Positions 19,871 to 48,797 of a DNA stretch of 64,000 nt are shown here, piece by piece. Below the pieces are notes generated by a model. That model had not been told where the DNA came from. It ran no database searches and worked only from the letters and a program-made list of their open reading frames with translations. The position numbers and the translations under genes are program-made. The stretch's first letter is position 1. The number at the start of each line of letters is the position of its first letter. This DNA comes from a virus. Location: IMG/VR virus record IMGVR_UViG_3300042691_047443, positions 1 to 64,000 of that record; one strand, 5' to 3'.

Positions 19871-20433
19871 CAGGCCCCTCCTCCTCCGCTTGAGCCCGCC
19901 CTATCTGCAAACGGTGCCTGAAATTCATCAGATGATGTATTAGGCGATCCATCGACAGACAAATCGAACTGATCTTCCATGATGTCCTTAAACTTTTCAA
20001 CAACGTCAAGTTCGTAGTTTTTATTGATAAAGTTTGTGGCACGACGTAATATTGTCGTCCTGATCTCAAGCAAAGAATCGTAATTGTCTATTAGGCGAGA
20101 AATGCTGTTTGCAAAATTATTTAAATCTATGTCTTCAATCTTAAGCTTCTCGGCTTTTGTCTCTTCTGCGTCACTGCCACTGCCTGAGTCTTCGTCGCCC
20201 TCTTCTTCATCACCCTCAGCCTCAAGGAGGCGTCGAAGGAGTCTTCTCCAGTCCTTGGACTCGTTTTTTGACATCTTAGACTCTGATTCGTAATCTGATA
20301 GAAATCGATCGATCTGTATATCGATTGAATCATTGCCTCTTTCTTGAGGGGTCTCTTCCGCCTCATTCAAAATTTTTTTTCTTGACTCAGATACGAGTCT
20401 TTTCCATCCTATCTTAGGGCTATAACGCATCAT
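19870..20433 (-). CDS. acidic unknown protein (187 aa)
   Basis: Begins MMRYSPKIGWKRLVSESRKK. An acidic, Gly/Ser linker around residues 73-92 separates two helical parts, and the end is Ser/Gly-rich (DRAGSSGGGGA). The first ATG overlaps the superoxide dismutase stop (ATGA). Composition resembles the other disordered, leader-bearing proteins. Function unknown. Confidence 0.55.
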   Translation of the reverse strand: MMRYSPKIGWKRLVSESRKKILNEAEETPQERGNDSIDIQIDRFLSDYESESKMSKNESKDWRRLLRRLLEAEGDEEEGDEDSGSGSDAEETKAEKLKIEDIDLNNFANSISRLIDNYDSLLEIRTTILRRATNFINKNYELDVVEKFKDIMEDQFDLSVDGSPNTSSDEFQAPFADRAGSSGGGGA

Positions 20434-21155
20434 GATTTCACCGCCTGAGCGATCAACTCTGCGCGCTCCACCCGTTCCTCAATGACGCTCCATTTGAATT
20501 CTTTCATTTGAGAAACAAGATAGCTTTTCTTGTCAGAGAGGTAATCTCTTGTATAGCTGTGCTCCCACATGTCAACGACGATTACTGGAAATACGCCCAA
20601 CATCACGTCTCCACTGTGATGGCTTACGATCATGTTCACAAACCTACGCAAGAACATGTGGTATCCACAGACTGCCCAGCCGTTTCCGGCAGACATTGCT
20701 GTCGCCATGAAGTCCTTTTGCCACGTATCAAAAGTTCCAAAGTCCCTCTGTAGTCGCAGATAGGCCTTGGAATCCATGACAATTTCGCTGTGTGGATCAA
20801 AACAATTTGCAAAATAAAGTTCGTGAAGCCAGACTGCATTGAGGTTATACGACTCATCTAGTTTCAGTGAACGAAATTCAGAGTGACGTGGATTTGCCTC
20901 TGATCGATCTGCGGTATCCAACTTCGAAGAAACGTCGTTCAGCGACTGAATGTAATTCTTGTAGAGGCCTTGGTGCATGTCTTTCGTTTTTTGAGAGACT
21001 AGTTCAGAAACCTGCTTGAATTGCTTCGGTTCTGCAACATATGCTTCATCCAAGGTGCTTCTGTTTTGTGTAACAGATTCTTTGACTGTTTTCTTCAAAA
21101 GCATGTCTAGGTCCGTACTGTCTATGATTGAACGTCCTGAATTAATCGACCTCAT
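20430..21155 (-). CDS. Fe/Mn superoxide dismutase with N-terminal extension
   Basis: All four metal ligands of the Fe/Mn family can be placed: H61 (KDMHQGLYKNYI), H111 (AVWLHELYFANCF), D195 and H199 (VVDMWEHSYTRDY). The spacings (50, 84, 4) are very close to the bacterial enzymes. FGTFDTWQKDFMATAMSAGN and GNGWAVCGYH occupy the usual active-site loop region. The first 45 residues are extra and contain a helix LDMLLKKTVKES, similar to the leader found on many proteins here. It would dismutate superoxide during infection or be carried in the virion. GGAG precedes the ATG. Confidence 0.9.
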   Translation of the reverse strand: MRSINSGRSIIDSTDLDMLLKKTVKESVTQNRSTLDEAYVAEPKQFKQVSELVSQKTKDMHQGLYKNYIQSLNDVSSKLDTADRSEANPRHSEFRSLKLDESYNLNAVWLHELYFANCFDPHSEIVMDSKAYLRLQRDFGTFDTWQKDFMATAMSAGNGWAVCGYHMFLRRFVNMIVSHHSGDVMLGVFPVIVVDMWEHSYTRDYLSDKKSYLVSQMKEFKWSVIEERVERAELIAQAVKS

Positions 21156-21458: not shown

Positions 21459-21896
21459 TTACCCCGATTTGTCCATTTTGATCGCGTCTTGATAACTGAG
21501 CACCTCAATTCCGGCAGATCTCATCATTTCAAGACCTGAAGTGTCCCTGTATTCGTGCAGGTATATGACTCTAGAGATTTCAGCGTTTATTATAAGTTTT
21601 GAGCATGCCCGACAGGGGCTATGCGTAACATACATATGTTTCTTTTTAGAAAAGTTGTAATCACACTTAATTAATGCATTAACTTCTGCGTGAATAAACC
21701 CGCTTTGGCCTGGTTCTTGTGATTCGTGACAATTAGGGCCGCCCTTGTAGTTACCATTGTAACCCATCGACAACATCTGAGTGTTGTCTTCTGCTACGAC
21801 AATGGCACCAACTTTTAACCGTGGATCGTAAGATCTTCCAGAGATAACGTTTGCAACGTCCATCCACGTTTCTGACCAATATTTTCTTTGATTCAT
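21459..21896 (-). CDS. dCMP deaminase
   Basis: The zinc-deaminase signature is complete: HAE in SGFIHAEVNALIKC and PCRAC in THSPCRACSKLII. Preceding residues (RLKVGAIVVAEDN, SMGYNGNYKGGPNC) match deoxycytidylate deaminases. It converts dCMP to dUMP, feeding ThyX (41115-41774). In a phage that modifies cytosine it would also help drain unmodified dCMP (inference). The start overlaps the thymidine kinase stop (ATGA). Confidence 0.93.
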   Translation of the reverse strand: MNQRKYWSETWMDVANVISGRSYDPRLKVGAIVVAEDNTQMLSMGYNGNYKGGPNCHESQEPGQSGFIHAEVNALIKCDYNFSKKKHMYVTHSPCRACSKLIINAEISRVIYLHEYRDTSGLEMMRSAGIEVLSYQDAIKMDKSG

Positions 21897-22471
21897 TTCT
21901 TTAACTTAAGATTAAAAACTGTTGGAAAATGAGTGGCGCACCTGGGTTCGTAAAGTTCATCGCCACCCACCTCAACCACAAATTCATCTCCGCCTAATGT
22001 CTTTTTATGCGTAAAGGGGGCATCATCTCCACAAACGGTGCAAACCGCAGTGCACTTCTCTATCCGGGTTGCCCAAGGCAACATCTGAGAAATTTCAGGG
22101 AAAGGCTTTCCGTTCGATGCCATGTCCAGCGTTGACACGATCACGTTAAAACCACTTTGGTACAAAAAGACAAGAACCTCAGCAATTCCCGGAATCATAA
22201 AGGCTTCATCTACGGCAATAACGTGAGGATCTTCACTTGCATTGGCAAGAAAGTGCAAGATATCTGCGCCTTCTTGCACACAAACTGCAGAATGCCTCCA
22301 TCCACCGTGTGTCATGATTTCAGCAACGCTGTACCTCGTGTCCATGGTGGGTTTAAAAACAGCAACCCTTTCACGTTGATACTTGTAACGTTCCAGGTCC
22401 ATCAATAACCTAGACGTTTTTGAGCTAAACATGGGACCACAGTATACATTAAAGACAGGATTTTTCTGCAT
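21893..22471 (-). CDS. thymidine kinase (type II)
   Basis: P-loop NVYCGPMFSSKTSRLL at the N-terminus, lid and Walker-B-like VIAVDEAFMIPG, and a zinc-type Cys pair in CTAVCTVCGDDAPFTHKK fit cellular and T4-type Tdk. Phosphorylates thymidine and deoxyuridine. The start MQKNPVF at 22471 follows GGGG by six bases; a GTG at 22483 is possible. Confidence 0.92.
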   Translation of the reverse strand: MQKNPVFNVYCGPMFSSKTSRLLMDLERYKYQRERVAVFKPTMDTRYSVAEIMTHGGWRHSAVCVQEGADILHFLANASEDPHVIAVDEAFMIPGIAEVLVFLYQSGFNVIVSTLDMASNGKPFPEISQMLPWATRIEKCTAVCTVCGDDAPFTHKKTLGGDEFVVEVGGDELYEPRCATHFPTVFNLKLKK

Positions 22472-22482
22472 CAGATTCCCCA

Positions 22483-23070
22483 CTAATCTAAGGTATAATT
22501 TTTACATAAGGTGTTCATCAACAAAATATTCAAATTTTCCTTGAATGGCGTCCTGAGCCATTCTGGGATGACATCATGCCAATGGTGAGGCTTATAATTG
22601 TTTCTGTCTGCCGCAACGTTGAAATGCCTATCATAATTAGGACCTTTCTCATGTACGTGACCATGAACAATATGCAAAAAATCACCCAAGGCTGATTCGT
22701 CAAACTTTTTATCGGAAAGTGACTTAAGTGGATAGTGTGACAACGCCACACCCCCTAGGTTAAGATAATCGTAAACAGCGATGAAACCTGAATCTATGTA
22801 CCACTGATCCTGCTGGTGATCGTGATTACCTCTGATCAGGATCTTCTTACCGTTCATTCGCCGGATCAATTCTCTTAATTCTTCAATTCTTCCCTTTAAT
22901 CCGGCCGATATGTCGCCTACAAAAACCCCGACGTCGTTTTCCTCTACCCGAGAGTTCCAGTTCTCTAACATGTGTTCGTTCATTTGGGCTGAGTCCACGA
23001 AGGGCCTGGAACAATACCTGATGATATTTTCGTGAAAATAGTGATTGTCTGATGTGAAATAAACCGTCAT
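22483..23070 (-). CDS. calcineurin-like metallophosphoesterase
   Basis: The metal-binding blocks appear in order: YFTSDNHYFH (D-x-H), GVFVGDISAG (G-D), LIRGNHDHQ (G-N-H-D), ALSHYPL and VHGHVHEKG. A complete small phosphoesterase of the type found in T4-like phages. Substrate unknown; possibilities are cyclic or RNA 2',3' phosphates. It lies directly next to the RNA-ligase-like gene, so it could heal RNA ends for it (inference). Confidence 0.85.
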   Translation of the reverse strand: MTVYFTSDNHYFHENIIRYCSRPFVDSAQMNEHMLENWNSRVEENDVGVFVGDISAGLKGRIEELRELIRRMNGKKILIRGNHDHQQDQWYIDSGFIAVYDYLNLGGVALSHYPLKSLSDKKFDESALGDFLHIVHGHVHEKGPNYDRHFNVAADRNNYKPHHWHDVIPEWLRTPFKENLNILLMNTLCKNYTLD

Positions 23071-25820: not shown

Positions 25821-26369
25821 TTAATCCTGGTTCAATACTACGAACGGAGATTTTACGCTGGGAGAATACTCCCCTGCGACCGCAAGGGCCCTTTCTATCT
25901 TTTGCTTTGGCGTCAGCGATATGTCATGGTAAAGAACATTCATCGCGCCTAGCGCATATGCAAATCCAGAGCCTGACACTGCAAACTTTTGTCTTAAAGA
26001 ACTTACGTTAAAGTCGGCCTCAATCACGTATATGTTTCCCTTGAATCCAAGAACGATCTCGGAGTCATGAGCATCTCCAGTTTCTTCCTTGAAAAGAACG
26101 CCCTTTGTGTCAAGCAGATTTCTCAGGCACTCCACAAAGTCGCACACTAGATATTCCATGTGTGCCTTATTGTTGAGAAACTTGGGAGGCCTGAGAGACC
26201 AACGTAACAGTTGTCCTATTCTGAAACTGCCTGAAAATCCAATAAGAAACTCACCGTTCTTGAAAACCTTTTCATCTTGACGAATGAGAACCTCATCCTC
26301 CCGATAAGAAGCGGAATCTGCACCCATCCAGATGGAACCATTATCTTCAAGTGCGACAACGCAGGTCAC
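25821..26369 (-). CDS. HslV/proteasome-beta-like Ntn hydrolase
   Basis: The protein begins (M)TCVVALEDNGSIWMGADS, so initiator removal would expose Thr1. Asp in GADSAS and Lys in DEKVFKNGEFLIGFSGS correspond to the Asp17/Lys33 pair of HslV. FAVSGSGFAYALGAMNVL matches the G-S-G turn, and the end resembles HslV helix 5. The length of 182 aa equals HslV. Translation starts at a GTG overlapping the upstream stop (GTGA) with AAAGG seven bases before. It may assemble as a peptidase ring with host HslU or another ATPase. No unfoldase is adjacent. Confidence 0.85.
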   Translation of the reverse strand: MTCVVALEDNGSIWMGADSASYREDEVLIRQDEKVFKNGEFLIGFSGSFRIGQLLRWSLRPPKFLNNKAHMEYLVCDFVECLRNLLDTKGVLFKEETGDAHDSEIVLGFKGNIYVIEADFNVSSLRQKFAVSGSGFAYALGAMNVLYHDISLTPKQKIERALAVAGEYSPSVKSPFVVLNQD

Positions 26370-27130
26370 TTGAAAGCCTTTCCATATACAGACTCAGGAT
26401 AAGCGTCTCGATACTTTGACCTTGTAATACTCAACTCGCCAGTTTTCAAAAAGTGATCGACTAGGTAAAAATCTCTCTCATATACATGGATGCTTCCGAC
26501 CTGCCAGTGCAGATTACCTGCAGGATAACCAAGCTCACTCGCTACCTTCTCTAACATATGTTGCTGCCAAGATCTATCATTCTTGTATCCAATTAGCGCA
26601 TCGTTACTACGCATTTGCACGATAGCATGGCACTGTCCATTTCTTATAACATACTGAACTGCGTTGGTACACATGAAATCACTGCGACCGTTTGCGCTGT
26701 AATCTTCCCACATTGAAGGTCTTGTGTAGATGATGATTGCCCGTCGACTTTCTGGGTTCTTCCTCAATTCGCCTACGACCTTTTCGAACTGAGATCCGTT
26801 CTCGGGGCTTCGGACGCACCACCCATAGTTAGAGTTGATCTTACCGTCGGCACAGGCAATTGCACGCCAAACAGCAGGTGCGCCACCGGGAAAATCATTC
26901 ACGTTAAGCGACATGGAGTCATACCACTCTTCTTCACGCTTTACGTAATCATGGTTCACTTCTCCGAAAATAACTTCGTCGCCTGCAATGAAACTGGCAC
27001 CGACAATCTCAATCGTGCGAGACCCCATGAGATTGGTCATTGATGCCTCTCGATTGATGGACGTGAAGTGATTCCCCAAAAATAGATTTGCGAACTCATT
27101 CCTAATATCGATCACATTATTGTAATTCAC
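26366..27130 (-). CDS. thymidylate-synthase family, probable dCMP hydroxymethylase
   Basis: The TS fold signature is clear: SRRAIIIYTRPS, catalytic C154 in DFMCTNAVQY, RSND at 174-177 and IHVYERD near 217. Counting from the cysteine without gaps, the residue that selects the base in E. coli TS (Asn177, 31 after the Cys) is here D185. T4 dCMP hydroxymethylase has Asp at the same place. The phage also encodes ThyX, so dTMP synthesis does not need this enzyme. It would make 5-hydroxymethyl-dCMP. GTG at 27130, overlapping the epimerase stop (GTGA) eight bases after GAGG, is chosen over upstream ATG/TTG codons. Confidence 0.8.
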   Translation of the reverse strand: MNYNNVIDIRNEFANLFLGNHFTSINREASMTNLMGSRTIEIVGASFIAGDEVIFGEVNHDYVKREEEWYDSMSLNVNDFPGGAPAVWRAIACADGKINSNYGWCVRSPENGSQFEKVVGELRKNPESRRAIIIYTRPSMWEDYSANGRSDFMCTNAVQYVIRNGQCHAIVQMRSNDALIGYKNDRSWQQHMLEKVASELGYPAGNLHWQVGSIHVYERDFYLVDHFLKTGELSITRSKYRDAYPESVYGKAFK

Positions 27131-28095
27131 TTGTTTAACCTCATGTTGCTGATCCATGACCAATTGTTATTATACCACTCGATAGTACGTTCCAGACCTT
27201 CCCAGAATCTAACAAGGGGACTATATCCCAACGTTATATGGATACAGTTAACGCTTGCTTGAGTGTGCATCACATCGCCCGAGCGCCATGGTGCATCGTG
27301 GCTTTTTGCATCTGGAAATCTTCCTTTAAGAAACTCAAGGATTTCTTTATTTGTTGTCCTGTCGCCGCAGGCAACATTGAAACAAGCGGCCGCAAGATCG
27401 TTATGGTGCGCTGCTGCACGCACGCAGGCATCTGTCACGTTATCAACGTAGCACATGTCTCGTGACTGTGAACCGTCTCCGTCACTGCGCATCGACATGC
27501 CTTTGTTTATGGCCGTAAGCCACGCAGAAACCGCAGTTGAATATGGAGAATCTCCCAATTGATTTGGTCCGAATACGTTGAAGAACCTCAAGGCAACTGA
27601 ATCAAGTTCGTACAGATCATAATAGATCTTCAGGTAATCTTCAATAATTGACTTCTGCAACGCATAGGGGGACTTTGGGTCCTTCTTTGTGGCTTCAACC
27701 GTTGGAAGCTTTTGAGCCCCACCATAGACAGAGGACGAAGATGCAAACACAAAGCGTTTTACGTTGTTGCGACAGGCTTCCATCAATTGAAGCGTCTTAT
27801 TTACGTTGGTTTCGTGCGTCTCAATGGGGTGTTCCACAGAATAACTCACCCGTGGTACAGCTGCGAGGTGAAAAATCACATCAAACCACTTTGACCTAAT
27901 CCTCGAAAGAACAGACTCAGAAGAAAAGTCTTCCTTTAAAAAGAGATTTGGATTGGCTGCAAAAAGAGGGGGCAAAAATTCCGTGTGACCATTTGAAAGA
28001 TCATCAACACCTGTGACATCCCAACCTTCCTTGAGACACCTTGCTACGAGGTTACTTCCGATAAAACCTGCAGCACCTGTGATCAAAACTCGCAT
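27127..28095 (-). CDS. NAD-dependent UDP-sugar 4-epimerase (extended SDR)
   Basis: Rossmann start MRVLITGAAGFIGSNLVARC, VDDLSNGH, FHLAAVPRVSYSV, catalytic YALQK preceded by SSSSVYGG, and FFNVFGPNQ mark an extended short-chain dehydrogenase of the UDP-hexose/UDP-pentose 4-epimerase type. Substrate preference cannot be read with certainty. Near-neighbours are a hydroxymethylase and a glycosyltransferase, and a UDP-glucuronate decarboxylase lies 7 kb away. UDP-xylose to UDP-arabinose conversion is therefore attractive (inference). AGGAG precedes the ATG. Confidence 0.88.
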   Translation of the reverse strand: MRVLITGAAGFIGSNLVARCLKEGWDVTGVDDLSNGHTEFLPPLFAANPNLFLKEDFSSESVLSRIRSKWFDVIFHLAAVPRVSYSVEHPIETHETNVNKTLQLMEACRNNVKRFVFASSSSVYGGAQKLPTVEATKKDPKSPYALQKSIIEDYLKIYYDLYELDSVALRFFNVFGPNQLGDSPYSTAVSAWLTAINKGMSMRSDGDGSQSRDMCYVDNVTDACVRAAAHHNDLAAACFNVACGDRTTNKEILEFLKGRFPDAKSHDAPWRSGDVMHTQASVNCIHITLGYSPLVRFWEGLERTIEWYNNNWSWISNMRLNK

Positions 28096-28150
28096 CTAAA
28101 TCTCCTGAATGAAACAAATTTACAACAGAAAAAGCTCATGTACACATGAC

Positions 28151-29473
28151 TCAAAGTAGGTTCATCTTACGCATTGCATGTGTGGTTGTCGACTCATAGG
28201 AACAACGATCCCTCACAACGTTGAGCAACGGAACCATCGAATTGCACCACTCTTTTGTGCCCTTGTTTTGCTTAACGTGATCTATGAGATTGGACGCAAC
28301 TTCAACTATGTCAGAGAAATCTGACTTTGCTAGAACGGGTACTTTAAACCCAAGCTCAGATGCATCTCGAATGATTCCGGAGTATTCAAAATTATTCAAC
28401 CATAGAGGTAAACAGCCCAATTCTACACACTCTCTGGCGACAGTTCCACCATACGTGTCTTGGTCATACAGGCCTAAAGCGATGTCGACATGCGTTGCAA
28501 CAACCTTGAATTCATCACGTGTAAACGAATCAGGAACAAGAGAGACGTAACCGTTGTGACCGCACTCTGACGTAAGTTCCTCATTGGAGAACTTCTGGCT
28601 TGGGTTCCCAGCAAGAACGACGAAATCATTTCGTCTCTCATGTAAACGTGGAAGTACGTCAAACATGAATTTGCCACAATTTGTGTAATCTGACGATCTT
28701 CCTTTGCCACCGATCCGGTTTGGAACAAAGATAATTGTCTTGCCTTGCTCACGCCATCGATTGAAGACATTGGGATCAAATCGGATCCCATCAAGGTCAG
28801 GCGCGGACCTAATCTCCTCGATCGAATATCCGTCATCCCACGGTGATGATTTTGCCATTACAGCGTCCACGACGCCATCACGGAATAACTTACGTGCCTC
28901 TGCCTCAAATTCAGAAAGCGCGGACCCACATTGCCAAAAGTTCCAATCTGCCTTTAAGGCGGCCTCACATTGACCCAACCACAATGATGCATCAATCGGA
29001 AACTTGGGACAGGACGGCACATCTACAAAGTGTGAATGAACATAAAATTTAGGTTGATATCCACCTTCAAGGAGGAACATCGCCTTAAAGTTTCTAAGGT
29101 GCATCGGATCGTTGAGATACACCGCATCATATCTCACTGTAACTTCCGTCTTGTGCCTTGAAAGACCTAGTCTACGTGACAGCGAAGAAACGTCAAAGTT
29201 GTACCGAGTCGCAAGTGCATTCGGAAAAATGTCATGCTCCACGTAGTGTACACGTGAACCCCATGGAATATCAGGATTTACCTGATACGGTGTGGTGACC
29301 ACAGACCCTTCGGAAAGAAGGGGACCCATAACGTGAATCACGAGATCCGGATTCTGTTTTAGCATTTCACGGACACGACCCATGACCATCTGCCATCCAG
29401 AGTCACACTCAAGGATGAATCTGCCTCGTGTGTCATAGTTAGAAAGTTGTGTTTGAATAAGTAATTTTTTCAT
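28151..29473 (-). CDS. GT-B glycosyltransferase
   Basis: A two-domain GT-B layout: an N-terminal half starting MKKLLIQTQLSNYDTRGR, and a C-terminal donor half with TIIFVPNRIGGKGRSSDY, DFVVLAGNPS, VDIALGLYDQDTYGGTVARE and ELGCLPLWLN. The E-x-x-x-x-G-x-x-P region is typical for nucleotide-sugar binding in retaining GT4-like enzymes. There is no membrane segment, so a soluble acceptor is likely. Its place between the hydroxymethylase/epimerase and the dNMP-kinase-like gene suggests it glycosylates hydroxymethylated DNA, as T4 alpha-GT does (inference). Confidence 0.82.
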   Translation of the reverse strand: MKKLLIQTQLSNYDTRGRFILECDSGWQMVMGRVREMLKQNPDLVIHVMGPLLSEGSVVTTPYQVNPDIPWGSRVHYVEHDIFPNALATRYNFDVSSLSRRLGLSRHKTEVTVRYDAVYLNDPMHLRNFKAMFLLEGGYQPKFYVHSHFVDVPSCPKFPIDASLWLGQCEAALKADWNFWQCGSALSEFEAEARKLFRDGVVDAVMAKSSPWDDGYSIEEIRSAPDLDGIRFDPNVFNRWREQGKTIIFVPNRIGGKGRSSDYTNCGKFMFDVLPRLHERRNDFVVLAGNPSQKFSNEELTSECGHNGYVSLVPDSFTRDEFKVVATHVDIALGLYDQDTYGGTVARECVELGCLPLWLNNFEYSGIIRDASELGFKVPVLAKSDFSDIVEVASNLIDHVKQNKGTKEWCNSMVPLLNVVRDRCSYESTTTHAMRKMNLL

Positions 29474-29486
29474 GTGTTTCTTTGTG

Positions 29487-30029
29487 TTATCCCAGAAAAG
29501 AAATGATATCAGACACTTCTCTGTCTAGATTTTCGTCGTCGACATTCAGCTTCATATAATCACAGGCTGTGATTTCATGTAGGTATTTTTCATAGTGATC
29601 GTCTAGCTTCTGCAGGGTTTCTTGCTGAATTCTAGAATCTAGATCATCAATGATTCCTGTGTACGAACTTCTGCGACAAAAGATTATTTTTGCCCCCAAG
29701 GATGCCCACTGCTTGTCCATGTGGACAAGAAACTTCTCATCAGTCTTGCGATGAAACACGGATGAATAGACCCATTCACACGGAAAACCCCTGTCAAATA
29801 TAACTCCGTAACCGGTCTGCTTCAAAAGATCAAGTACGCGAGGATCGGCATGCCGCAATTGTGACAGAAACAATTCATTTTTGTCATCCATCGACAAAAA
29901 CGATGAATGTTCAGAGGAGGCCTTAAAATAAGGAACACTTAGTCGGACCGACAACTCTTTTGCAATCTGTGTCTTGCCACACATATCAGGACCAACCATG
30001 AACACTAAACGTTGTTTTTGTTTCAACAT
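29487..30029 (-). CDS. P-loop kinase, probable deoxynucleoside-monophosphate kinase
   Basis: Walker A MVGPDMCGKTQIAKELSVRL at residues 11-30, Asp-Arg in GVIFDRGFPCEWVYS, and lid-type IIFCRRSSYTGIIDD fit thymidylate/deoxynucleotide kinases. T4 gp1 is the precedent for phosphorylating hydroxymethyl-dCMP. The ATG at 30029 has no ribosome site; TAAGAT lies six bases upstream, inside a double palindrome. Confidence 0.75.
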   Translation of the reverse strand: MLKQKQRLVFMVGPDMCGKTQIAKELSVRLSVPYFKASSEHSSFLSMDDKNELFLSQLRHADPRVLDLLKQTGYGVIFDRGFPCEWVYSSVFHRKTDEKFLVHMDKQWASLGAKIIFCRRSSYTGIIDDLDSRIQQETLQKLDDHYEKYLHEITACDYMKLNVDDENLDREVSDIISFLG

Positions 30030-30030
30030 G

Positions 30031-30050
30031 AAGATATCTTAACTTAAGTT
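30031..30050. repeat. two adjacent perfect 10-bp palindromes
   Basis: AAGATATCTT followed at once by AACTTAAGTT fills the short gap between the 30049 gene stop and the kinase start. The minus-strand TAAGAT box (30036-30041) spans their junction. A tandem operator or an RNA structure is possible. Confidence 0.45.
30036..30041 (-). promoter_or_regulatory. candidate -10 box of a leaderless promoter
   Basis: TAAGAT on the minus strand exactly six bases before the kinase ATG (30029), which lacks a Shine-Dalgarno sequence. Confidence 0.4.
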
Positions 30051-30588
30051 ATGTCGCTGTACACACTTCAAAATCGATGATGTGACCGTGCGTACCCGCA
30101 CCCTTCTTGACATGTCCATGTTGGGGGCAGTGAATTGTGTACTGTGCTGCGTCTGGATAGATTTTAATGATCTCTCCTGTTTCCTTTTTGCCCTTAAATG
30201 TAAAGGACACCTGATCTCCTAAAGCAAACTTTGCAGTGACCCCGTGTGCAAGAATCCAGCTATGATATACAATCTCCTTATGTGCAAGGTAACGCTGATG
30301 TGCAACGTCTTCAAGCAAGTCAACAAGATCGGCATCAGGGTCCCAGCCAGCGTGTTCCAAGTTCTTGGCGATGTGATACGCATCGTCGTCGTACTCAATC
30401 GCTGAAAAAATCTCAGCCTTTATCACCTCAAGCTCTTGAGCTGAAGGAGCCCCGCCTTCTTGGCACACCCACTGGATGATTTTTGGTGTGACGCGTTCTG
30501 AAGTGAGAGAGTTGACTTCCTTGCTAAGATAGCGAGGTCGCGGCGGAAGAGGAAGGTCATCGAATAGCTGAAGTTGCATACCTTTCAT
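30049..30588 (-). CDS. unknown protein (179 aa)
   Basis: AAAGGA precedes the ATG. Residues 1-35 are Pro-rich and extended, 36-110 helical and acidic (ELEVIKAEIFSAIEYDDDAY), and the last 60 form a barrel-like part (FALGDQVSFTFKGKKETGEI) ending with a His-rich stretch (HCPQHGHVKKGAGTHGH). Possibly an SH3-like domain with a metal site. Not recognised. Confidence 0.6.
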   Translation of the reverse strand: MKGMQLQLFDDLPLPPRPRYLSKEVNSLTSERVTPKIIQWVCQEGGAPSAQELEVIKAEIFSAIEYDDDAYHIAKNLEHAGWDPDADLVDLLEDVAHQRYLAHKEIVYHSWILAHGVTAKFALGDQVSFTFKGKKETGEIIKIYPDAAQYTIHCPQHGHVKKGAGTHGHIIDFEVCTAT

Positions 30589-30620
30589 AGGTTAATCCTT
30601 TAACAGGTCGTATAAAGATT

Positions 30621-30830
30621 TCACTTTTTATTTCCATAACCATCAGCGTACCACCCACCGCCTTGCAGGAGGAAACCTGAGCCCCCCGTGATGAGCCTGT
30701 TCCGAGTCTCTGAACCGCACTTTGGACACGTGGCTCGAGCTTCTTCTTTCATCGACTGATTCACTTCAAACTGATTTTCGCATGCATCACATTTATAATC
30801 GTACTTCACGTTATCTTCCTCATTTTCCAT
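30621..30830 (-). CDS. FmdB-type zinc-ribbon protein (69 aa)
   Basis: YDYKCDACENQFEV and ATCPKCGSETRNR give the C-x-x-C...C-x-x-C ribbon of the FmdB family, followed by the typical GGSGFLLQGGGWYADGYG tail. Such proteins occur in bacteria and large phages, with unclear roles (regulation or metal handling). The start lies inside the end of the DnaE gene (25-base overlap). Confidence 0.88.
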   Translation of the reverse strand: MENEEDNVKYDYKCDACENQFEVNQSMKEEARATCPKCGSETRNRLITGGSGFLLQGGGWYADGYGNKK

Positions 30831-33800
30831 TGGGATGTTGAAAGTCCAAAATCATCTCTCTTGACTTCTGCACAGAACAAGGTAAATGCATCAGGCAGGT
30901 CCTTTTGCCCCCAAACTGTCACTCGTTGAACCTTGCCTGTAGGGCCTGCAACATAGATTTGGACGTATTCCTTTCCTGCCTTTGAGGATTTTTTGATACC
31001 TGTCACAGGCGTTGCTCCCTTCTTCGGGGAAGTTGGAGATACAACCATCCAACACAATTGCGGATCTCCTTGTTCAACCTCTTCGATCGATTTGATGCCC
31101 CTTGTTTCAAAGGCGTTCAACACATTTGAATCTATCAGGCTGATGATGTCAATCGCACCAAACACCTCCACCATGTTTTGCGCCCTCTCCGTCGGAGACC
31201 ATTCCTCTACGGAAGAATTTTGCCTCAGTAAGTTGTAAAAATTCTTGAGTCCTTCGTGAGGATCAGACTTTGTCGAGCGTTTGATGAGTGCCGAGTGATC
31301 AAATTCAACATCCTCCGTGACTTCAATTCCCTTCTTTTTCCTTGTCACGGACTCAACATGCGATCCAAGCAAGGTTTGGTACATGTGATTGTAGTTGTTA
31401 AATAACATACCTTCACCAACCATGTTCATGGAGTCAAAAGCCCCAATCTTTATCAGGGCCTCAAGCGCCTTCTTGTTGAACTTACTGTGTCTCCATTCAA
31501 AGTTTTTGTCCCACAGCAGCTCTTCAATCGTAGAATAGGGCCGATTTTGGACAATCTCTTCAAGAGCGGAAGAACCGACACCCTTACACGATGTCATAGA
31601 AGGCATCAATCTTCTTCCCGGAAGAACTGTCCAACCAGACGTCGCAAGATTGATATCGATTGGTACGATCTGATAACCCAGAGACTTTACCTCACCGAAG
31701 GCTTTGGCACGCGACTCCGGGTTGTTTGACATTGACTCAAGGTATGCGGAAATCCACTCCTCCTCGTGGTAGGTGAGCAACCATGCACACCAAAACGAAT
31801 CAATTGCGTATGCAACTGCATGTGCCTGATTGAAACCGTATCCCGAGAAATACAGAATCTTGTCGTAGAGGTTGTTTGCCACAGGTTCAAGGTAACCATT
31901 TTTTACGCAACCAATCACAAAGCTCGATCGCGTCTCCTCTGCTGCTTTCTTTGCTGCCTCGCCCCCTGAGATAGAACGCTTCATGATGGCTCGACGAACC
32001 TCATCGCACTGCTCCTTAGGGAATCCGGCACACTTCTCTGCCAACTCCATGACCTGTTCCTGGAAGATGATCAGGCCTCGTGTCTTTTCCAGGATTTTGT
32101 TGATTCTTTGATCACCCCATTCGTACTCTTTTCCTTCCCTTGCCTCAAGGTACAGCTTGTCCACGTTTGCAGCAAGAGGACCCGGTCGATAGATTGACGT
32201 CAGCGCCGCAATGTCAATGATGCTCTTTGGTTTTGCCTTCACAAAGAGTTTCTGCGCGCCTTGAGACGTCAGCTGGAAGATACCAGACCACTTTGCTTTT
32301 TCATATACCTCATAAGGTTTTGGGTCATTGAAATCGATCTTACTGGGGGCCATGTGTTCGTCATACCATGCCCTGATGTCGGAAAACGTGGGATTCTGAT
32401 TCCCGCCCTTGCGAAGGACCAATTCAATTGTCCTTTCAATCAAACGAAGGGTCTCAAGGCCGAGAAGGTCGTACTTGATGAAGTTGCCAATATATTCTAG
32501 GTGTTTAAAATTTACCCCTTCGACCCATGGAGACTGTGGCTCACCACCGGATGTGATGAGTGGCATCTTTCGTGGAAGATCATCTGCGATGAGAACGCCG
32601 CCTGCGTGGCGACCCAGTGAACGATTCTGTTTGAAGAGAATCTTGATGGATTCGGCAACGTGTGGATACTTGTCGATGAAGTCCTTGAAAGTAGGAGAGT
32701 GGGCGTATGCATCATCATATTGCAGCACGAAAAGGTTTTTGTCATCGCCATGCTTCGTGGTCGCCCTTCTTACGTCCTCCTCAACCGTCTTTGTTGCTGC
32801 ATTTACCTCTTCAAAGGGAATTCCGTAAAACTTGCTTACGTCCTTGACGAGACTTTTCACCTTGAAGGTGTTGTAGTTCGAGATAGGAACCACGTTGTCA
32901 AATCCGAAGTAGTTTCGCAACTGTTCAAGGACCTTATCTCTGTCGGCAAGGTCGGTATCAATGTCAGGTGCACCTTTACGATACACCGAGAGAAAACGGC
33001 TGAAAGGCAAGTCCCAAAAGACAGGATCAAGGTCTGTAATGTACAGTACGTAATTGACTAGAGAACCTCCTCCCGATCCACGTCCGGGGCCGACAAGGCA
33101 CACTTTTCTCGCAAGTTCAATGATTTTCTGGTACGAGATGAAATAGTCTGCGTTCTTCATCGTCTTGATGACGCCTAGTTCTTCACGTAAACGCTCGATG
33201 TACTCAGGCTTATCCTGTAATCCTCGCTTCACCATTCCTTCCTTACAGAGGGAAACAAGGTGATTGAACGAAGAAATGTCTTTGGGAACCAACCTTTGGG
33301 TTGGAAACTTGGAGGTCCTGTCTGGCGGCACTTCGCCGATAACGTGATGCGCGATGTCGTGAGAGCGTTCGATGGCCTCCAGCACCTCATCATCATCGTA
33401 AAAGCCTGTCTCCTCCTTAGAGCGGAGGTACTCCTCCCATACCTGAGAGGCGTTCTTGGGGTACAGCTCACACTTCAGATCATCCTTTGACTTGGGGAGA
33501 GAATCTGGGCTGTACGTGGTGTAGTTCATGAACCCGAGCTTCTTATACAGCTCACGCTCTTTCCACAGCTCGGGCCGGTGGTAGTGCGAATCGCAGGTTA
33601 CCACGAGCTGTTTAGTTGTCCCCGTACGACGTGCAAACTCGAGAATCGCACGATTGACAAGGTTCTGAGCGGGAAGCCTATTGAACTGCAACTCGAGAAA
33701 GTAATTCTCTCGACCCACCGCAGAGGTCATCATGTCGTACACATTGCCGATGGCATTTACGCACTTATTCAAGAGGACGGCGTCATCAAGCAACTTCTCG

Positions 33801-34498
33801 TTCAGGTTGTCAAAAGCCACTCTCTGCAACTCTTGAAAGACAACCCAGGACGGAAAACCACCGAGGCAAGCGGAGGAAACAACAATATCACCGTTTTTTC
33901 CAGCCTCACGCAGCATACCGAGATCCATTCGAGGAAACCTATAAAAGCCATGTAGATATGACTTAGAGGTTGCCTCGAACAGAGACAGGAGACCACGCTG
34001 GTTCTTCGGTAGGATCACCATGTGATGGCGTCGATTCACTGGATTAAAGTGCTTCGTCGACTTTGACTCGTCCTCATTCTCAATGGTGAGAGCGTTTGTA
34101 GTCTCAATCTCTTCTGTCTCATCCTCAGAGTCCACCCGAGCGATGATCCTCGTCTTCAGGTCTTCCTGTTGCTTCTGCAACTTTGAAGCAGCCTTCTTGT
34201 CGATGGCGGCCTGATCAGCCAGATCCTTGTCACGCTGCCACTGGGCAAGATCTGGGTGGAAGTACGCCTCGATTCCAGGAATGTACTTAAACTTTCCCTT
34301 GTCGGAAGAATTCCACTTTTCTACCCAAAGCTGGGCGTGTGCATATGAATTAAAGTTACCGTGTTCAGTGAGAGCATGGGCGTCAAGGCCGTTCTCCATG
34401 CACCAAGTAAAATGCTCATCAGGATAGCCTAAGCCGTCAAAGGGGCTGAAGCCTGAATGACCGTGAAGGCCGACGAAACGATTGGGTGTGCGAGACAT
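30806..34498 (-). CDS. dnaE: DNA polymerase III alpha subunit (DnaE-type, family C)
   Basis: A complete replicative polymerase. The N-terminal PHP domain has FVGLHGHSGFSPFDGLG, ALTEHGNF, GIEAYF and a late VTCDSHYH. The catalytic palm holds VGPGRGSGGGSLVNYV and PDIDTDLAD (two catalytic Asp) plus LGRHAGGVLIA. Further on are FQLTSQGAQKLFVKAKPKS, DEVRRAIMKR, FNQAHAVAYAIDSFWCAWL, and a C-terminal OB-like region. The length of 1230 aa is normal for DnaE. No family-B (gp43-type) polymerase is present in this window, although helicase, SSB and RecA are T4-like. The ATG has no ribosome site; TATGAT stands six bases upstream. Confidence 0.95.
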   Translation of the reverse strand: MSRTPNRFVGLHGHSGFSPFDGLGYPDEHFTWCMENGLDAHALTEHGNFNSYAHAQLWVEKWNSSDKGKFKYIPGIEAYFHPDLAQWQRDKDLADQAAIDKKAASKLQKQQEDLKTRIIARVDSEDETEEIETTNALTIENEDESKSTKHFNPVNRRHHMVILPKNQRGLLSLFEATSKSYLHGFYRFPRMDLGMLREAGKNGDIVVSSACLGGFPSWVVFQELQRVAFDNLNEKLLDDAVLLNKCVNAIGNVYDMMTSAVGRENYFLELQFNRLPAQNLVNRAILEFARRTGTTKQLVVTCDSHYHRPELWKERELYKKLGFMNYTTYSPDSLPKSKDDLKCELYPKNASQVWEEYLRSKEETGFYDDDEVLEAIERSHDIAHHVIGEVPPDRTSKFPTQRLVPKDISSFNHLVSLCKEGMVKRGLQDKPEYIERLREELGVIKTMKNADYFISYQKIIELARKVCLVGPGRGSGGGSLVNYVLYITDLDPVFWDLPFSRFLSVYRKGAPDIDTDLADRDKVLEQLRNYFGFDNVVPISNYNTFKVKSLVKDVSKFYGIPFEEVNAATKTVEEDVRRATTKHGDDKNLFVLQYDDAYAHSPTFKDFIDKYPHVAESIKILFKQNRSLGRHAGGVLIADDLPRKMPLITSGGEPQSPWVEGVNFKHLEYIGNFIKYDLLGLETLRLIERTIELVLRKGGNQNPTFSDIRAWYDEHMAPSKIDFNDPKPYEVYEKAKWSGIFQLTSQGAQKLFVKAKPKSIIDIAALTSIYRPGPLAANVDKLYLEAREGKEYEWGDQRINKILEKTRGLIIFQEQVMELAEKCAGFPKEQCDEVRRAIMKRSISGGEAAKKAAEETRSSFVIGCVKNGYLEPVANNLYDKILYFSGYGFNQAHAVAYAIDSFWCAWLLTYHEEEWISAYLESMSNNPESRAKAFGEVKSLGYQIVPIDINLATSGWTVLPGRRLMPSMTSCKGVGSSALEEIVQNRPYSTIEELLWDKNFEWRHSKFNKKALEALIKIGAFDSMNMVGEGMLFNNYNHMYQTLLGSHVESVTRKKKGIEVTEDVEFDHSALIKRSTKSDPHEGLKNFYNLLRQNSSVEEWSPTERAQNMVEVFGAIDIISLIDSNVLNAFETRGIKSIEEVEQGDPQLCWMVVSPTSPKKGATPVTGIKKSSKAGKEYVQIYVAGPTGKVQRVTVWGQKDLPDAFTLFCAEVKRDDFGLSTSQWKMRKIT

Positions 34499-34504
34499 GT
34501 GCCA

Positions 34505-34510
34505 ATCATA
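34505..34510 (-). promoter_or_regulatory. candidate -10 box of a leaderless promoter
   Basis: TATGAT on the minus strand exactly six bases before the dnaE ATG (34498), in the 25-base gap after the decarboxylase stop. No Shine-Dalgarno sequence is visible for dnaE. Confidence 0.42.
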
Positions 34511-34523
34511 ACTTGTGTCAATG

Positions 34524-35531
34524 CTAGTTTACACTAGAAAGTTCTTCCATGAACCACTTGATCGTACGACGGACCCCTTCCTCAAGGTCTACGGTGGGTT
34601 CCCATCCAAGAATCTCTTTTGCACGAGAAATGTCAGGTCTTCTCTGAAGAGGATCATCCTTGGGCAGGGGCATGTTGATCAATTCGGGTTTTGTCGCACC
34701 ATACAACAGGCGATTCACGAGGAGGGCAAGATCCATTACTGTGAACTCTGCGGGATTTCCAAGATTGATCGGCCCCCCTGGATTTTTCGACAGTCCTGCG
34801 AGTGTCGTGATGCCCCTGATCAAATCAGACACATAGCAAAAACTTCGGGTCTGCTTTCCACCGCCGTAGATGGTGTATGGCTGCCTCTTCAAGGCCTGAA
34901 CAATGAAATTACTGACGACTCGACCGTCAAGGGGATCCATGTTTTCGCCGTACGTGTTGAATATCCTGACGAGTCTTGCATCAACACCGTGCTTGTGCAG
35001 ATAATCGTAACACAAGGCCTCAGCGGCGCGCTTTCCTTCATCGTAACAGGATCTTGGGCCATATGAATTGACGTTTCCCTTGTAGGATTCCGACTGTGGC
35101 GAGACGTCTGGGTCTCCGTACACTTCAGACGTTGACGCGTGAACAAACACAGAATTGTGCTTTCGAGCAACATCCAGTATGTTTACGGTGCCTGCGGTAC
35201 AGGTAAGAAGCGTCTCGACGGGAATCTCCTGATATCTAGGAGGTGACGCAGGACACGCAAAGTTGTATATCAGGTCGATTTTTCCACCGTTTGTAGTAAT
35301 GAAATCATCAACTGCCGCGACGACGTCAAGTGTTGAACATATGTCAACTTTTCGAATCATTGCACGTTCAGGACTGTACATCTTGCGCACAAACATCGAA
35401 TGATGAGAATCTTCTCGGGAGGAGGAATAGTTGTCAAGTCCTAACACATTGTCACCAGCCTTTAAGTGATGAATCGTGAGATGACTTCCGAGAAAACCAG
35501 CCGCACCAGTGATCATAACATTCTTACCCAT
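34524..35531 (-). CDS. UDP-glucuronate decarboxylase (UDP-xylose synthase)
   Basis: The family fingerprint is strong: MITGAAGFLGSHL, NFACPASPPRYQEIPVET, HASTSEVYGDPDVSPQSE, then GPRSCYDEGKRAAEAL with catalytic Tyr and Lys, RIFNTYGENMDPLDGRVVSN and GGGKQTRSFCYVSDL. It oxidises and decarboxylates UDP-glucuronate to UDP-xylose. No UDP-glucose dehydrogenase was seen, so UDP-glucuronate would come from the host or from genes outside the window. Start: AGGA lies five bases before the ATG at 35531; 35537 is also possible. Confidence 0.93.
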   Translation of the reverse strand: MGKNVMITGAAGFLGSHLTIHHLKAGDNVLGLDNYSSSREDSHHSMFVRKMYSPERAMIRKVDICSTLDVVAAVDDFITTNGGKIDLIYNFACPASPPRYQEIPVETLLTCTAGTVNILDVARKHNSVFVHASTSEVYGDPDVSPQSESYKGNVNSYGPRSCYDEGKRAAEALCYDYLHKHGVDARLVRIFNTYGENMDPLDGRVVSNFIVQALKRQPYTIYGGGKQTRSFCYVSDLIRGITTLAGLSKNPGGPINLGNPAEFTVMDLALLVNRLLYGATKPELINMPLPKDDPLQRRPDISRAKEILGWEPTVDLEEGVRRTIKWFMEELSSVN

Positions 35532-40469: not shown

Positions 40470-40838
40470 TCAATATCCATTTTCAATCCTATCAAAATTT
40501 TTGACGCCTTTTTGCATGTATGCATGATACATTTCGTCAAGACTCACACCTGATGCAATCACAATCTCAAAGAAAAAATGCAGAGAATCAATAAGTTCCT
40601 CTAAATACGCATCTTTATCGAGGTCATTGACCTCTGTTGCACGGTGAGTTTTACTGTTCTTAAGCTCCTGATTTGCCTCGAATAATTCACCCATGCACTC
40701 ATAGGTGATGCTCTTCAGGAACTTTTGTCCAGCCTTTGAGCGAATGTCGACTGGGAACTCTGGAAATCCTCTCTTTTTCTTTAGAAGATTCATGAACTCC
40801 AGTTGCTGGTTCCACATTTCTTGTAATTTGTCCTGCAT
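40470..40838 (-). CDS. all-alpha NTP pyrophosphatase (dUTPase/dCTPase type)
   Basis: The MazG/dimeric-dUTPase metal sites are seen as YECMGELFEANQELK and YLEELIDSLHFFFEIVIASG, followed by MYHAYMQKGVKNFDRIENGY. T4 gp56, which destroys dCTP and dUTP so that hydroxymethyl-dCTP is used instead, belongs to this superfamily. A separate trimeric dUTPase (48342-48797) already covers dUTP here, so activity on dCTP is a fair prediction. Confidence 0.82.
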   Translation of the reverse strand: MQDKLQEMWNQQLEFMNLLKKKRGFPEFPVDIRSKAGQKFLKSITYECMGELFEANQELKNSKTHRATEVNDLDKDAYLEELIDSLHFFFEIVIASGVSLDEMYHAYMQKGVKNFDRIENGY

Positions 40839-41114: not shown

Positions 41115-41774
41115 TCATTCAAATGGCGGACAGGTGCTACCGTCTTCCAGGATCAACCCATGAGCCCGAAGACTAAGATCAAACTTACCAGTGTCACGAA
41201 CACACTCCAGCATTTTATACGCAACCTCTCTGATCTCCAACTGCGCATGCTTCGAGTACCTCAATTGCAAAAAATGGACAAAGCTTCTAAAATTAAACAT
41301 AACATCAGCTGTCAGCTGAACACCGTATGGAAGATAAAGTCGAGCTGATTCTTTGGCACGCTTTCTTGGTAAACCCTTGTCAATCAGGCGCTGAAGCGTC
41401 TCATGATAATTCTTAAGAGAAAGATTCAAGTGCTCAATGTATCGAGTCTTCTCTTCATCGTCCCAATCAACAGGAACATAAAACTTGTCATCCTTCAACT
41501 CCTTATAACGAGCTGACTCACCGTTAAGAGACACACCTGCTCGATGCTTGATAAGGTGAATGTGGGAAGCAATGTCGGTGGTGACAAGAAAATGGATGCT
41601 CGACTTTTCAAACGGCGTTCCGTGATTGTCACGAGCCAACATATTTAAGAGATTACCAATCCTGGAACGTTTTTCGTCGGTTAGGTCTCTTGAGGTGGAG
41701 GTCCATGCTGAAAGAGCATGAGTTTCATCTCCGCCATAAAATCCAATCAACTCTACTTTATTTTCATTCAGCAT
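41115..41774 (-). CDS. thyX: flavin-dependent thymidylate synthase ThyX
   Basis: The ThyX motif is present as KHRAGVSLNGESARYKEL (residues 76-93), a variant common in phage ThyX. NLLNMLARDNHGTPFEKSSI and VMFNFRSFVHFLQLR fit the substrate and FAD-binding regions. It makes dTMP from dUMP with methylene-tetrahydrofolate, FAD and NADPH. Its presence makes the TS-like enzyme at 26366-27130 redundant for dTMP. The ATG has no ribosome site; TAATAT stands six bases upstream in a 7-2-7 inverted repeat. Confidence 0.95.
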   Translation of the reverse strand: MLNENKVELIGFYGGDETHALSAWTSTSRDLTDEKRSRIGNLLNMLARDNHGTPFEKSSIHFLVTTDIASHIHLIKHRAGVSLNGESARYKELKDDKFYVPVDWDDEEKTRYIEHLNLSLKNYHETLQRLIDKGLPRKRAKESARLYLPYGVQLTADVMFNFRSFVHFLQLRYSKHAQLEIREVAYKMLECVRDTGKFDLSLRAHGLILEDGSTCPPFE

Positions 41775-48341: not shown

Positions 48342-48797
48342 TCACTTTCCGGTTGACCCAAATCCGCTAGCGGAACGTTTCGTGTTGGCAAGATCTGCCG
48401 CAGACACCTTGACAAAGATGACGCTGGGAATCTTCGAGAACACAAGCTGTGCCACCCTCATTCCCTTTTCTACGAGAAAATCGTTTTTTCCCATGTTTGC
48501 AAGAATGACCTTCACTTCTCCCCTGTAGTCGCTGTCAATCGTACCGACACCATTTAAAACAAAAATGCCTTCCTTGGCTGCCAGACCAGATCTTGATCTG
48601 ACTTGACATTCATAACCTTTGGGAATTTCCATCGAAAGTCCTGTCGGCACCGGCGCCCAACCTCCCTTTGGGATCCACGTATTTTCAGAGGCAGTGACAT
48701 CGCAGCCCGCGGCACCGTGAGACTGGTAGCTTGGCTGCGTTTCTCCTGCGTACTTGACTGTAATAACGTTATCCTTGTAGTCGTCTACGTCAATCAT
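48342..48797 (-). CDS. dut: trimeric dUTPase
   Basis: All five dUTPase motifs are seen: AAGCDVTASE, CQVRSRSGLA, GVGTIDSDYRGEVKV, KGMRVAQLVF and the C-terminal RSASGFGSTGK. It hydrolyses dUTP to dUMP and pyrophosphate, feeding ThyX. The ATG at 48797 overlaps the recA stop by eight bases with GAGGAA eight bases upstream; in-frame upstream ATGs lie inside recA and are less likely. Confidence 0.96.
   Translation of the reverse strand: MIDVDDYKDNVITVKYAGETQPSYQSHGAAGCDVTASENTWIPKGGWAPVPTGLSMEIPKGYECQVRSRSGLAAKEGIFVLNGVGTIDSDYRGEVKVILANMGKNDFLVEKGMRVAQLVFSKIPSVIFVKVSAADLANTKRSASGFGSTGK

Follow-up and report, generated by a model that had tools for sequence, protein, structure and literature searches.

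The large, uncultured phage from which this DNA derives very probably swaps cytosine for hydroxymethylcytosine (hmC) in its genome and then caps the modified base with a sugar. The genes concerned lie in the 64,000-nt stretch analysed here (the window), which is a portion of a 76,489-base fragment. We would give a probability of about 0.6 to their forming, as a whole, a DNA hypermodification island whose sugar most likely derives from UDP-xylose or UDP-arabinose. In the pathway that we propose, a pyrophosphohydrolase probably removes dCTP, a thymidylate synthase (TS)-family enzyme would generate 5-hydroxymethyl-dCMP, and a P-loop kinase would help to convert this product into its triphosphate form, for insertion by the phage polymerase in place of dC. 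After replication, a GT-B transferase would add a sugar to the hydroxymethyl group, the donor most likely being UDP-xylose, formed from UDP-glucuronate by a decarboxylase, or UDP-arabinose following the action of an epimerase. These steps differ in their support: hydroxymethylation and decarboxylation of UDP-glucuronate can be inferred with confidence from sequence, sugar transfer is argued from gene linkage and from the swapping of enzymes at one genomic slot, and the choice of donor is the weakest part.

The gene island and its relatives

The features that bear on this pathway are as follows.

21459-21896, minus strand: dCMP deaminase (phrog_174, 1.2e-48), a syntenic nucleotide-pool gene
21893-22483, minus strand: thymidine-kinase-like gene, syntenic with the island (reading of the ORF; synteny)
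26366-27130, minus strand: predicted dCMP hydroxymethylase (HMase) of the TS family, with Asp at the position of E. coli N177 / T4 D179 (PDB, residues, tree)
27127-28095, minus strand: SDR nucleotide-sugar 4-epimerase, with UDP-xylose as proposed substrate (best PDB matches WbgU/WbpP-type)
28151-29473, minus strand: GT-B glycosyltransferase from an apparently new family, the proposed capping enzyme for hmC in DNA (AlphaFold, fold search, viral relatives)
29487-30029, minus strand: P-loop (deoxy)nucleotide kinase, proposed to act on hm-dCMP (phrog_761, model fold)
30806-34498, minus strand: PolIII-type DNA polymerase alpha (PolC), the lineage marker, between kinase and decarboxylase (tblastn, tree)
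34524-35531, minus strand: predicted UDP-glucuronate decarboxylase (UDP-xylose synthase, UXS; best PDB match human UXS1)
40470-40838, minus strand: MazG/dUTPase_2-type NTP pyrophosphohydrolase, proposed dCTPase (PF08761, phrog_12184)
41115-41774, minus strand: ThyX thymidylate synthase (PF02511, 7.2e-35)
48342-48848, minus strand: trimeric-type dUTPase (sequence motifs read by eye, no family scan)

The six ORFs named in a preliminary description of this DNA were all found intact at these coordinates, on the minus strand and free of internal stops, and all but the transferase could be assigned to sequence families. The HMase ORF begins with GTG and overlaps the stop of the epimerase gene by 4 bases, and only 13 bases separate the transferase from the kinase, so that the block reads as a single operon. 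The same genes, mostly in the same order, recur in 18 other viral contigs, with transferase identities of 46-62%, which argues that the arrangement is not due to chance. The 18 transferase relatives all belong to uncultured phages, of up to 369 kb. The kinase accompanies the transferase in 17 of them, the remaining locus being interrupted by the contig end, and the thymidine-kinase-like gene is kept next to the HMase in most.

The probable modified base and the nucleotide pool

The TS-family protein matched PF00303 (9.7e-15) and phrog_160 (1.4e-48), and its top PDB match was the T4 dCMP hydroxymethylase gp42 (1b49, 3.7e-74), with which it also formed a clade apart from the thymidylate synthases in a phylogenetic tree (support 100/99). 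In gp42, Cys148 is catalytic and Asp179 selects cytosine (PMC6400193). An alignment revealed that the T4 residues E60, S94, Y96, D145, C148, D171, D179 and Y218 are all kept in the window enzyme, and Cys148, Asp179, Ser94, Tyr96, Asp145 and Glu60 are present both there and in 17 distinct relatives. Since the genome also encodes ThyX and a dUTPase, the TS-family protein is dispensable for dTMP; a role as the thymidylate synthase was ruled out by ThyX together with the Asp that every copy carries at the selecting position. We infer with some firmness that the protein is a T4-type dCMP hydroxymethylase making hm-dCMP.

Pentosylated cytosine is known so far in RB69-type phages, where the sugar sits on 5-hydroxycytosine produced via a TS-family enzyme (PMC13390438), and the base in the window phage might likewise be 5-hydroxycytosine. 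This is very improbable, as the window enzyme is T4-type throughout and carries none of the substitutions S94T, D145E, D171N, Y218F and W82A seen in the enzyme of Yersinia phage TG1, the one reference sequence by which the hydroxycytosine lineage was represented in the alignment. 5-hydroxycytosine was thus rejected on active-site residues, and hmC, the base put forward in the preliminary description, emerged strongly supported by the complete set of catalytic residues and the gp42 clade.

The kinase gave a weak P-loop kinase match (phrog_761, 1.2e-7), and its structural model (pLDDT 89.6) resembles YorR and the deoxynucleoside (dAK) and thymidylate (TMK) kinases, with the T4 dNMP kinase gp1 lying outside the top 50 fold matches. 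The pyrophosphohydrolase, present in 17 of 19 records and directly upstream of PolC in three of them (L026, L030 and L035), matched PF08761 weakly (1.2e-5) and phrog_12184 at 1.6e-12, with no significant match in the PDB. The presence of a separate dUTPase would make a second one unnecessary, which favours a dCTPase role for this protein. By tblastn, the polymerase matched phage PolIII alpha subunits of the DnaE type.

Like the T4 glucosyl-hmC pathway (gp42, gp1, gp56 and the alpha- and beta-glucosyltransferases), this assembly of genes brings together in one genome a gp42-clade hydroxymethylase, a kinase for nucleotides, a putative dCTPase and a GT-B transferase. It differs in that the window transferase is unrelated in sequence to those of T4, orthology with gp1 and gp56 could not be demonstrated for the kinase and pyrophosphohydrolase, and the window has a decarboxylase and an epimerase of its own, together with a PolIII-type polymerase.

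The transferase and its exchangeable slot

The transferase had no match in Pfam, PHROG or NCBIfam, and we found no relatives in annotated phages; a cellular origin was set aside, no relative having been found among genome contigs. Its GT-B class was recognised from the predicted fold alone (AlphaFold; pLDDT 81.6, pTM 0.81). The nearest solved folds are the retaining GT-B enzymes MshA, BshA and PimA (GT4-type), none of them a DNA transferase, and a cyanophage 'DNA alpha-GT' ranked 22nd among viral-fold matches. The comparison with T4 DNA transferases suggested in the preliminary description bore out the GT-B fold, with the T4 alpha- and beta-glucosyltransferases outside the best 50 solved-fold matches, and with GT4-type neighbours the fold gave no decision as to the acceptor. 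Net charge was equally uninformative as a sign of DNA binding (-7, against 0 to -2 for T4-type comparators). A hypothetical protein adjoining the HMase of the Manatee Spring phage proved unrelated to the transferase. Judged against these family databases and annotated phages, the transferase appears to represent a new family, unrelated in sequence to the T4 DNA transferases. A similar case is reported by Pyle et al. 2024 (Cell Reports), namely virus-encoded glycosyltransferases from metaviromes that hypermodify DNA with diverse glycans.

An Asp-type HMase lies near the transferase in 18/18 relatives, and these HMases come from three different TS subfamilies. We then considered the wider DNA-polymerase lineage, found by a PolC alignment scan of viral contigs (scanning such contigs with a single UXS or PolC sequence gave almost no new records). 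Across this lineage, the transferase slot holds one of three mutually exclusive enzymes: the window-type GT-B transferase (class A), a CgeB-like transferase, often with a UDP-galactopyranose mutase (class B), or a carbamoyltransferase (class C; L188, L189, L201, L206, L207 and L254). The classes never co-occurred in 50 loci, and the PolC tree implies six or more changes of class at the slot. With pairs corrected for the tree, an HMase accompanied a decorating enzyme in about 5.6 of 7, and no pair ran the opposite way (median p 0.03). A phage carbamoyltransferase of the class C family has been validated as acting on 5hmC DNA (PMC8670742), so the exchange of this family with the window-type transferase speaks for modified DNA as the target. 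The phages of that study (MetaGPA, PMC8670742) likewise combine a TS-family gene of the Asp type with an enzyme that caps hmC, and sister phages of the window carry a carbamoyltransferase in the same slot; the window phage, however, would build its cap with a glycosyltransferase, and the MetaGPA contigs are not known to belong to its lineage.

The sugar enzymes and transferase might instead act on a phage protein or on the surface of the host, leaving plain hmC in the DNA. Consistent with this, the nearest folds are those of retaining GT4-type enzymes acting on small molecules and lipids; epimerase relatives also occur where an HMase is absent; and the closest viral fold, a protein of Arthrobacter phage Kitkat, comes from a genome in which no HMase was found in the stretch searched, for which reason it was dropped as a second DNA transferase. 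We nevertheless regard such a target as quite unlikely, given that all 18 transferases sit near an HMase within a block of replication and nucleotide-pool genes, in a slot that elsewhere houses a carbamoyltransferase of the 5hmC-DNA-acting family. The earlier proposal that hmC in DNA is the acceptor is thus well supported by gene context.

The proposed sugar donor and cap

Decarboxylase and epimerase are both SDR nucleotide-sugar enzymes (PF01370). The best PDB match of the decarboxylase is human UXS1 (4gll, 3.4e-88; next SDR class 1e-27), and the motifs ASTSEVYGDP (TSE), CYDEGKR (YxxxK) and QTRSF (QTR) align to those of UXS, strongly supporting the UDP-glucuronate decarboxylase activity previously suggested. 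A compact UDP-glucose dehydrogenase, found in 6 of 7 UXS-bearing records above 150 kb, is proposed to feed this decarboxylase in the larger relatives. The epimerase scored below the NCBIfam cut-offs for TviC and GalE; its best PDB matches support a 4-epimerase class, with UDP-xylose as a proposed substrate. Related SDRs are also present in class B/C and HMase-negative phages, with no exclusive tie to the pentose pathway or the transferase.

UXS was identified in 14/19 class A records as against 1/32 of classes B and C (Fisher 1e-7, uncorrected for descent). Its distribution follows lineage, and correction for descent leaves only 3 independent pairs, too few for a test. Two of the five class A records lacking UXS are short or partial fragments; G009 (267 kb), G013 and G018 also lack it, and their transferases form a single clade. 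Conversely, L242 and L243 have UXS without the transferase. Such gaps, together with the epimerases of HMase-negative phages, imply that neither enzyme is strictly tied to the transferase. While the decarboxylase assignment stood up well, a pentose on hmC, and arabinose in particular, is no more than plausible.

These gaps also bear on the possibility that the phage glycosylates hmC with a hexose or other UDP-sugar, taken from host UDP-glucose or from the epimerase, and that the decarboxylase serves another purpose. The class A transferases of G009, G013 and G018 occur with a diverged epimerase and no UXS, the window epimerase is nearest to WbgU/WbpP/TviC-type enzymes rather than to any proven UDP-xylose epimerase, and sugar genes are swapped in related phages, as with the class B mutase. 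Most class A phages nonetheless retain UXS alongside the transferase, six of them with UDP-glucose dehydrogenase, which makes a non-pentose sugar rather unlikely.

The pentose cap would resemble that of the RB69 and Thanatos phages, in which a pentose is likewise attached to cytosine through a handle made by a TS-family enzyme (PMC6024577, PMC12838424, PMC13390438). RB69-type phages use 5-hydroxycytosine, however, whereas the window phage would use hmC, and the sugar genes of RB69-type and Thanatos phages encode an isomerase, NTP-transferase or pyrophosphorylase in place of a UDP-glucuronate decarboxylase. As the RB69 base has since been corrected to arabinosyl-5-hydroxycytosine (PMC13390438), RB69 offers no precedent for pentosyl-hmC, of which our literature search found no report from any organism; should the cap prove to be a pentose, the base would therefore be new to DNA and the first pentosylated hmC.

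We tentatively extend this to the large-phage lineage as a whole, in a scheme to which we would give somewhat less than even odds: a constant hmC core would be joined to one exchangeable cap slot, with class A phages making 5-(pentosyloxymethyl)cytosine by a new DNA glycosyltransferase family via a viral route from UDP-glucose through UDP-glucuronate to UDP-xylose, the class with UDP-galactopyranose mutase placing a furanose on DNA, and the third carbamoylating it. Hypermodified cytosines protect the DNA of phages against restriction and CRISPR, and bacteria respond with nucleases and glycosylases specific for the modification. Were a lineage to retain the hydroxymethyl handle while exchanging the cap again and again, it would be a natural record of this arms race and a source of several new DNA-capping enzymes.

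A T4-type hydroxymethylase and the predicted base

The full record, from an uncultured virus, is 76,489 bases long, and the window covers bases 1-64,000. The genes named in the preliminary description are each intact, and the island, with its lineage-marking polymerase, reads as follows:

26366-27130, minus strand: TS-family dCMP hydroxymethylase
27127-28095, minus strand: epimerase (SDR)
28151-29473, minus strand: GT-B glycosyltransferase (the transferase)
29487-30029, minus strand: P-loop kinase
30806-34498, minus strand: PolIII-type DNA polymerase alpha
34524-35531, minus strand: UDP-glucuronate decarboxylase (UXS)
40470-40838, minus strand: pyrophosphohydrolase, proposed dCTPase

The hydroxymethylase and epimerase genes overlap by 4 bases, and 13 bases separate transferase from kinase. 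A PDB comparison identified T4 deoxycytidylate hydroxymethylase as the closest solved relative of the 26366-27130 product (3.7e-74), with thymidylate synthases far behind, and the protein forms a single clade with T4-like gp42 (support 100/99). Glu60, Ser94, Tyr96, Asp145, Cys148 and Asp179, important in the T4 enzyme by mutation or structure (PMC6400193), are all kept, together with Asp171 and Tyr218 (T4 numbering), in agreement with the dCMP-hydroxymethylase type first proposed. The Yersinia phage TG1 enzyme served as a stand-in for the RB69 5-hydroxycytosine lineage, as judged from the TG1 homologue of the RB69/Thanatos sugar gene (PMC12838424, PMC13390438). This enzyme departs from the T4-type residues (S94T, D145E, D171N, Y218F, W82A), whereas the window enzyme is conserved at S94, D145, D171 and Y218. 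Since the same genome encodes ThyX and, by reading of the ORF, a dUTPase, dTMP synthesis and dUTP removal do not account for the TS-family and pyrophosphohydrolase genes. The T4 match, the gp42 clade, the conserved residues and the presence of ThyX and dUTPase all point to 5-hydroxymethylcytosine (hmC) as the predicted base, with a probability of about 0.93.

The transferase and an exchangeable slot for proposed capping enzymes

The transferase has no match in Pfam, PHROGs or NCBIfam, nor among 50,697 annotated phage records, where a query from a relative, at E up to 10, likewise found none. A model built from seven sequences (pLDDT 81.6, pTM 0.81) adopts a GT-B fold. Its closest solved folds are retaining enzymes, including MshA, BshA, PimA and glycogen synthase, and its closest viral fold is a protein of Arthrobacter phage Kitkat, in whose examined sequence no hydroxymethylase was found; a cyanophage ‘DNA alpha-GT’ ranks 22nd. 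With such neighbours the fold does not single out an acceptor, so that the modelled structure supports the proposed glycosyltransferase but not a given target.

A profile scan recovered 18 relatives, all on viral contigs, the largest of which measures 369 kb; genome contigs yielded none. Each of the 18 has a hydroxymethylase close by, and these hydroxymethylases fall into three TS subfamilies (window/T4 type and those of related loci L005 and L006), all of which retain the complete set of residues. Upstream of the transferase, 17 of the 18 carry the kinase, the remaining one ending at a contig edge, and the pyrophosphohydrolase is present in 17 of the 19 transferase-bearing records. Scanning with the neighbouring polymerase yielded 80 loci, or 87 non-redundant loci when pooled with the transferase set. 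Flanked by polymerase or kinase on one side and hydroxymethylase or epimerase on the other, one slot holds one of three capping enzymes, and never two together.

Proposed capping enzymes in the slot of the polymerase lineage
Class A: the window's transferase; 18 loci; hydroxymethylase in 18/18
Class B: CgeB-like glycosyltransferase (PF13524 in some members); 26 loci, 13 with UDP-galactopyranose mutase; hydroxymethylase in 24/26
Class C: carbamoyltransferase plus ATP-grasp protein; 6 loci; hydroxymethylase in 6/6

Of the two class B loci lacking a local hydroxymethylase, L242 encodes one at another place in the record and L215 is incomplete. Diagnostic residues are retained in 49/49 checked hydroxymethylases of the polymerase set. 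At least six changes among the classes on the polymerase tree (quick method) indicate that capping enzymes were swapped repeatedly. Fourteen records have no hydroxymethylase near the polymerase, 12 of them none anywhere; at the loci of these 12, several of which are fragments, no class A, B or C enzyme was found. Correction for descent gives 7 independent pairs; in 5.6 of them capping enzyme and hydroxymethylase occur together, and in none is the direction opposite (median p 0.03). Carbamoylation of 5hmC in DNA has been demonstrated for a phage carbamoyltransferase that pairs with an Asp-type TS-family gene (PMC8670742), and we infer from family and context that class C shares this function. 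The simplest reading is that classes A and B would also act on hmC in DNA.

In 13 class B loci (L191:14679-15797 and 12 others) the mutase (PF03275, 1e-77) lies between the hmC-making enzyme and the CgeB-like glycosyltransferase, an arrangement suggestive of DNA capped with a furanose. In class C, the presence of an ATP-grasp protein may point to chemistry beyond simple carbamoylation; the slots of this class (L206:13995-17692, L207, L188, L189, L201, L254) also hold a conserved 217-aa protein without known family. At L002, L004, L006, L024 and L035 the polymerase gene is interrupted by intron- or intein-like insertions, some with endonuclease-like ORFs.

The sugar donor

The decarboxylase call was borne out by a match of 34524-35531 to human UDP-glucuronate decarboxylase 1 (3.4e-88; next SDR class 1e-27) with aligned UXS motifs. 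Sequence matches place the epimerase in the WbgU/WbpP/TviC group, as expected of the proposed UDP-sugar 4-epimerase, with UDP-xylose as a candidate substrate. Seven related records encode a UDP-glucose dehydrogenase of compact size (PF03721 + PF00984, ~320-360 aa; a third domain was looked for and not found), at L155:1495-2454 and in contigs G004, G005 (one TGA read through), G006, G008, G009 and G010; of the seven records that exceed 150 kb and bear UXS, six are in this group. In those six phages the virus itself encodes every step of the route from UDP-glucose through UDP-glucuronate to UDP-xylose. The window's own fragment lacks a dehydrogenase of this compact kind.

The proposal that UXS and epimerase supply a pentose fared less evenly. 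UXS occurs in 14/19 class A records versus 1/32 of class B or C, but descent accounts for a good part of the association: correction leaves just three independent pairs, too few for an informative test. Three records without UXS, G009, G013 and G018, have transferases that group in a single clade (100/100) and epimerases sharing just 41-45% identity with that of the window. Two fragments also lack UXS: G003 (31 kb, its transferase lying at the cut end) and G007 (92 kb, likewise a fragment). G016 has UXS without an epimerase of the window kind, and L242 and L243 have UXS without the class A transferase. Epimerase relatives also occur in hydroxymethylase-negative phages, so context alone does not place the epimerase in a DNA pathway. 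On balance, we consider a pentose cap slightly favoured, and arabinose rather than xylose is put forward with less confidence.

Relation to known bases, and neighbouring genes

Among modified bases, hmC is already known in glycosylated and in carbamoylated form, and hydroxycytosine in pentosylated form. The novelty lies in the transferase family, the decarboxylase route and, within the polymerase lineage, the exchangeable slot; a literature search found no description of these (Pyle 2024 and Lee 2025 lay outside the comparison). For years the RB69 base was described as arabinosyl-hmC (PMC6024577), but it has been reassigned to arabinosyl-hydroxycytosine (PMC13390438), and pentosyl-hmC, if correct, would therefore be a new DNA base.

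An Fe/Mn superoxide dismutase C-terminal domain (20430-21155, PF02777) adjoins the island in most transferase-bearing relatives, and a product with weak proteasome-subunit likeness (25821-26369, PF00227, 0.003) lies beside the hydroxymethylase; many relatives carry it too, either singly or in duplicate. The window also encodes a nitrilase-type carbon-nitrogen hydrolase, unusual for a phage (16252-17007, PF00795), and a mannose-6-phosphate-isomerase-type cupin (1926-2321, PF01050); cupin-like proteins with a similar DDYGR ending sit within the island of many relatives. A conserved ~260 aa protein of no family lies within the island of several relatives (L243:13504-14292; also L024, L025, L190), and in a related phage a myo-inositol-1-phosphate synthase (L228:16727-17917, PF01658) is found near a diverged hydroxymethylase.
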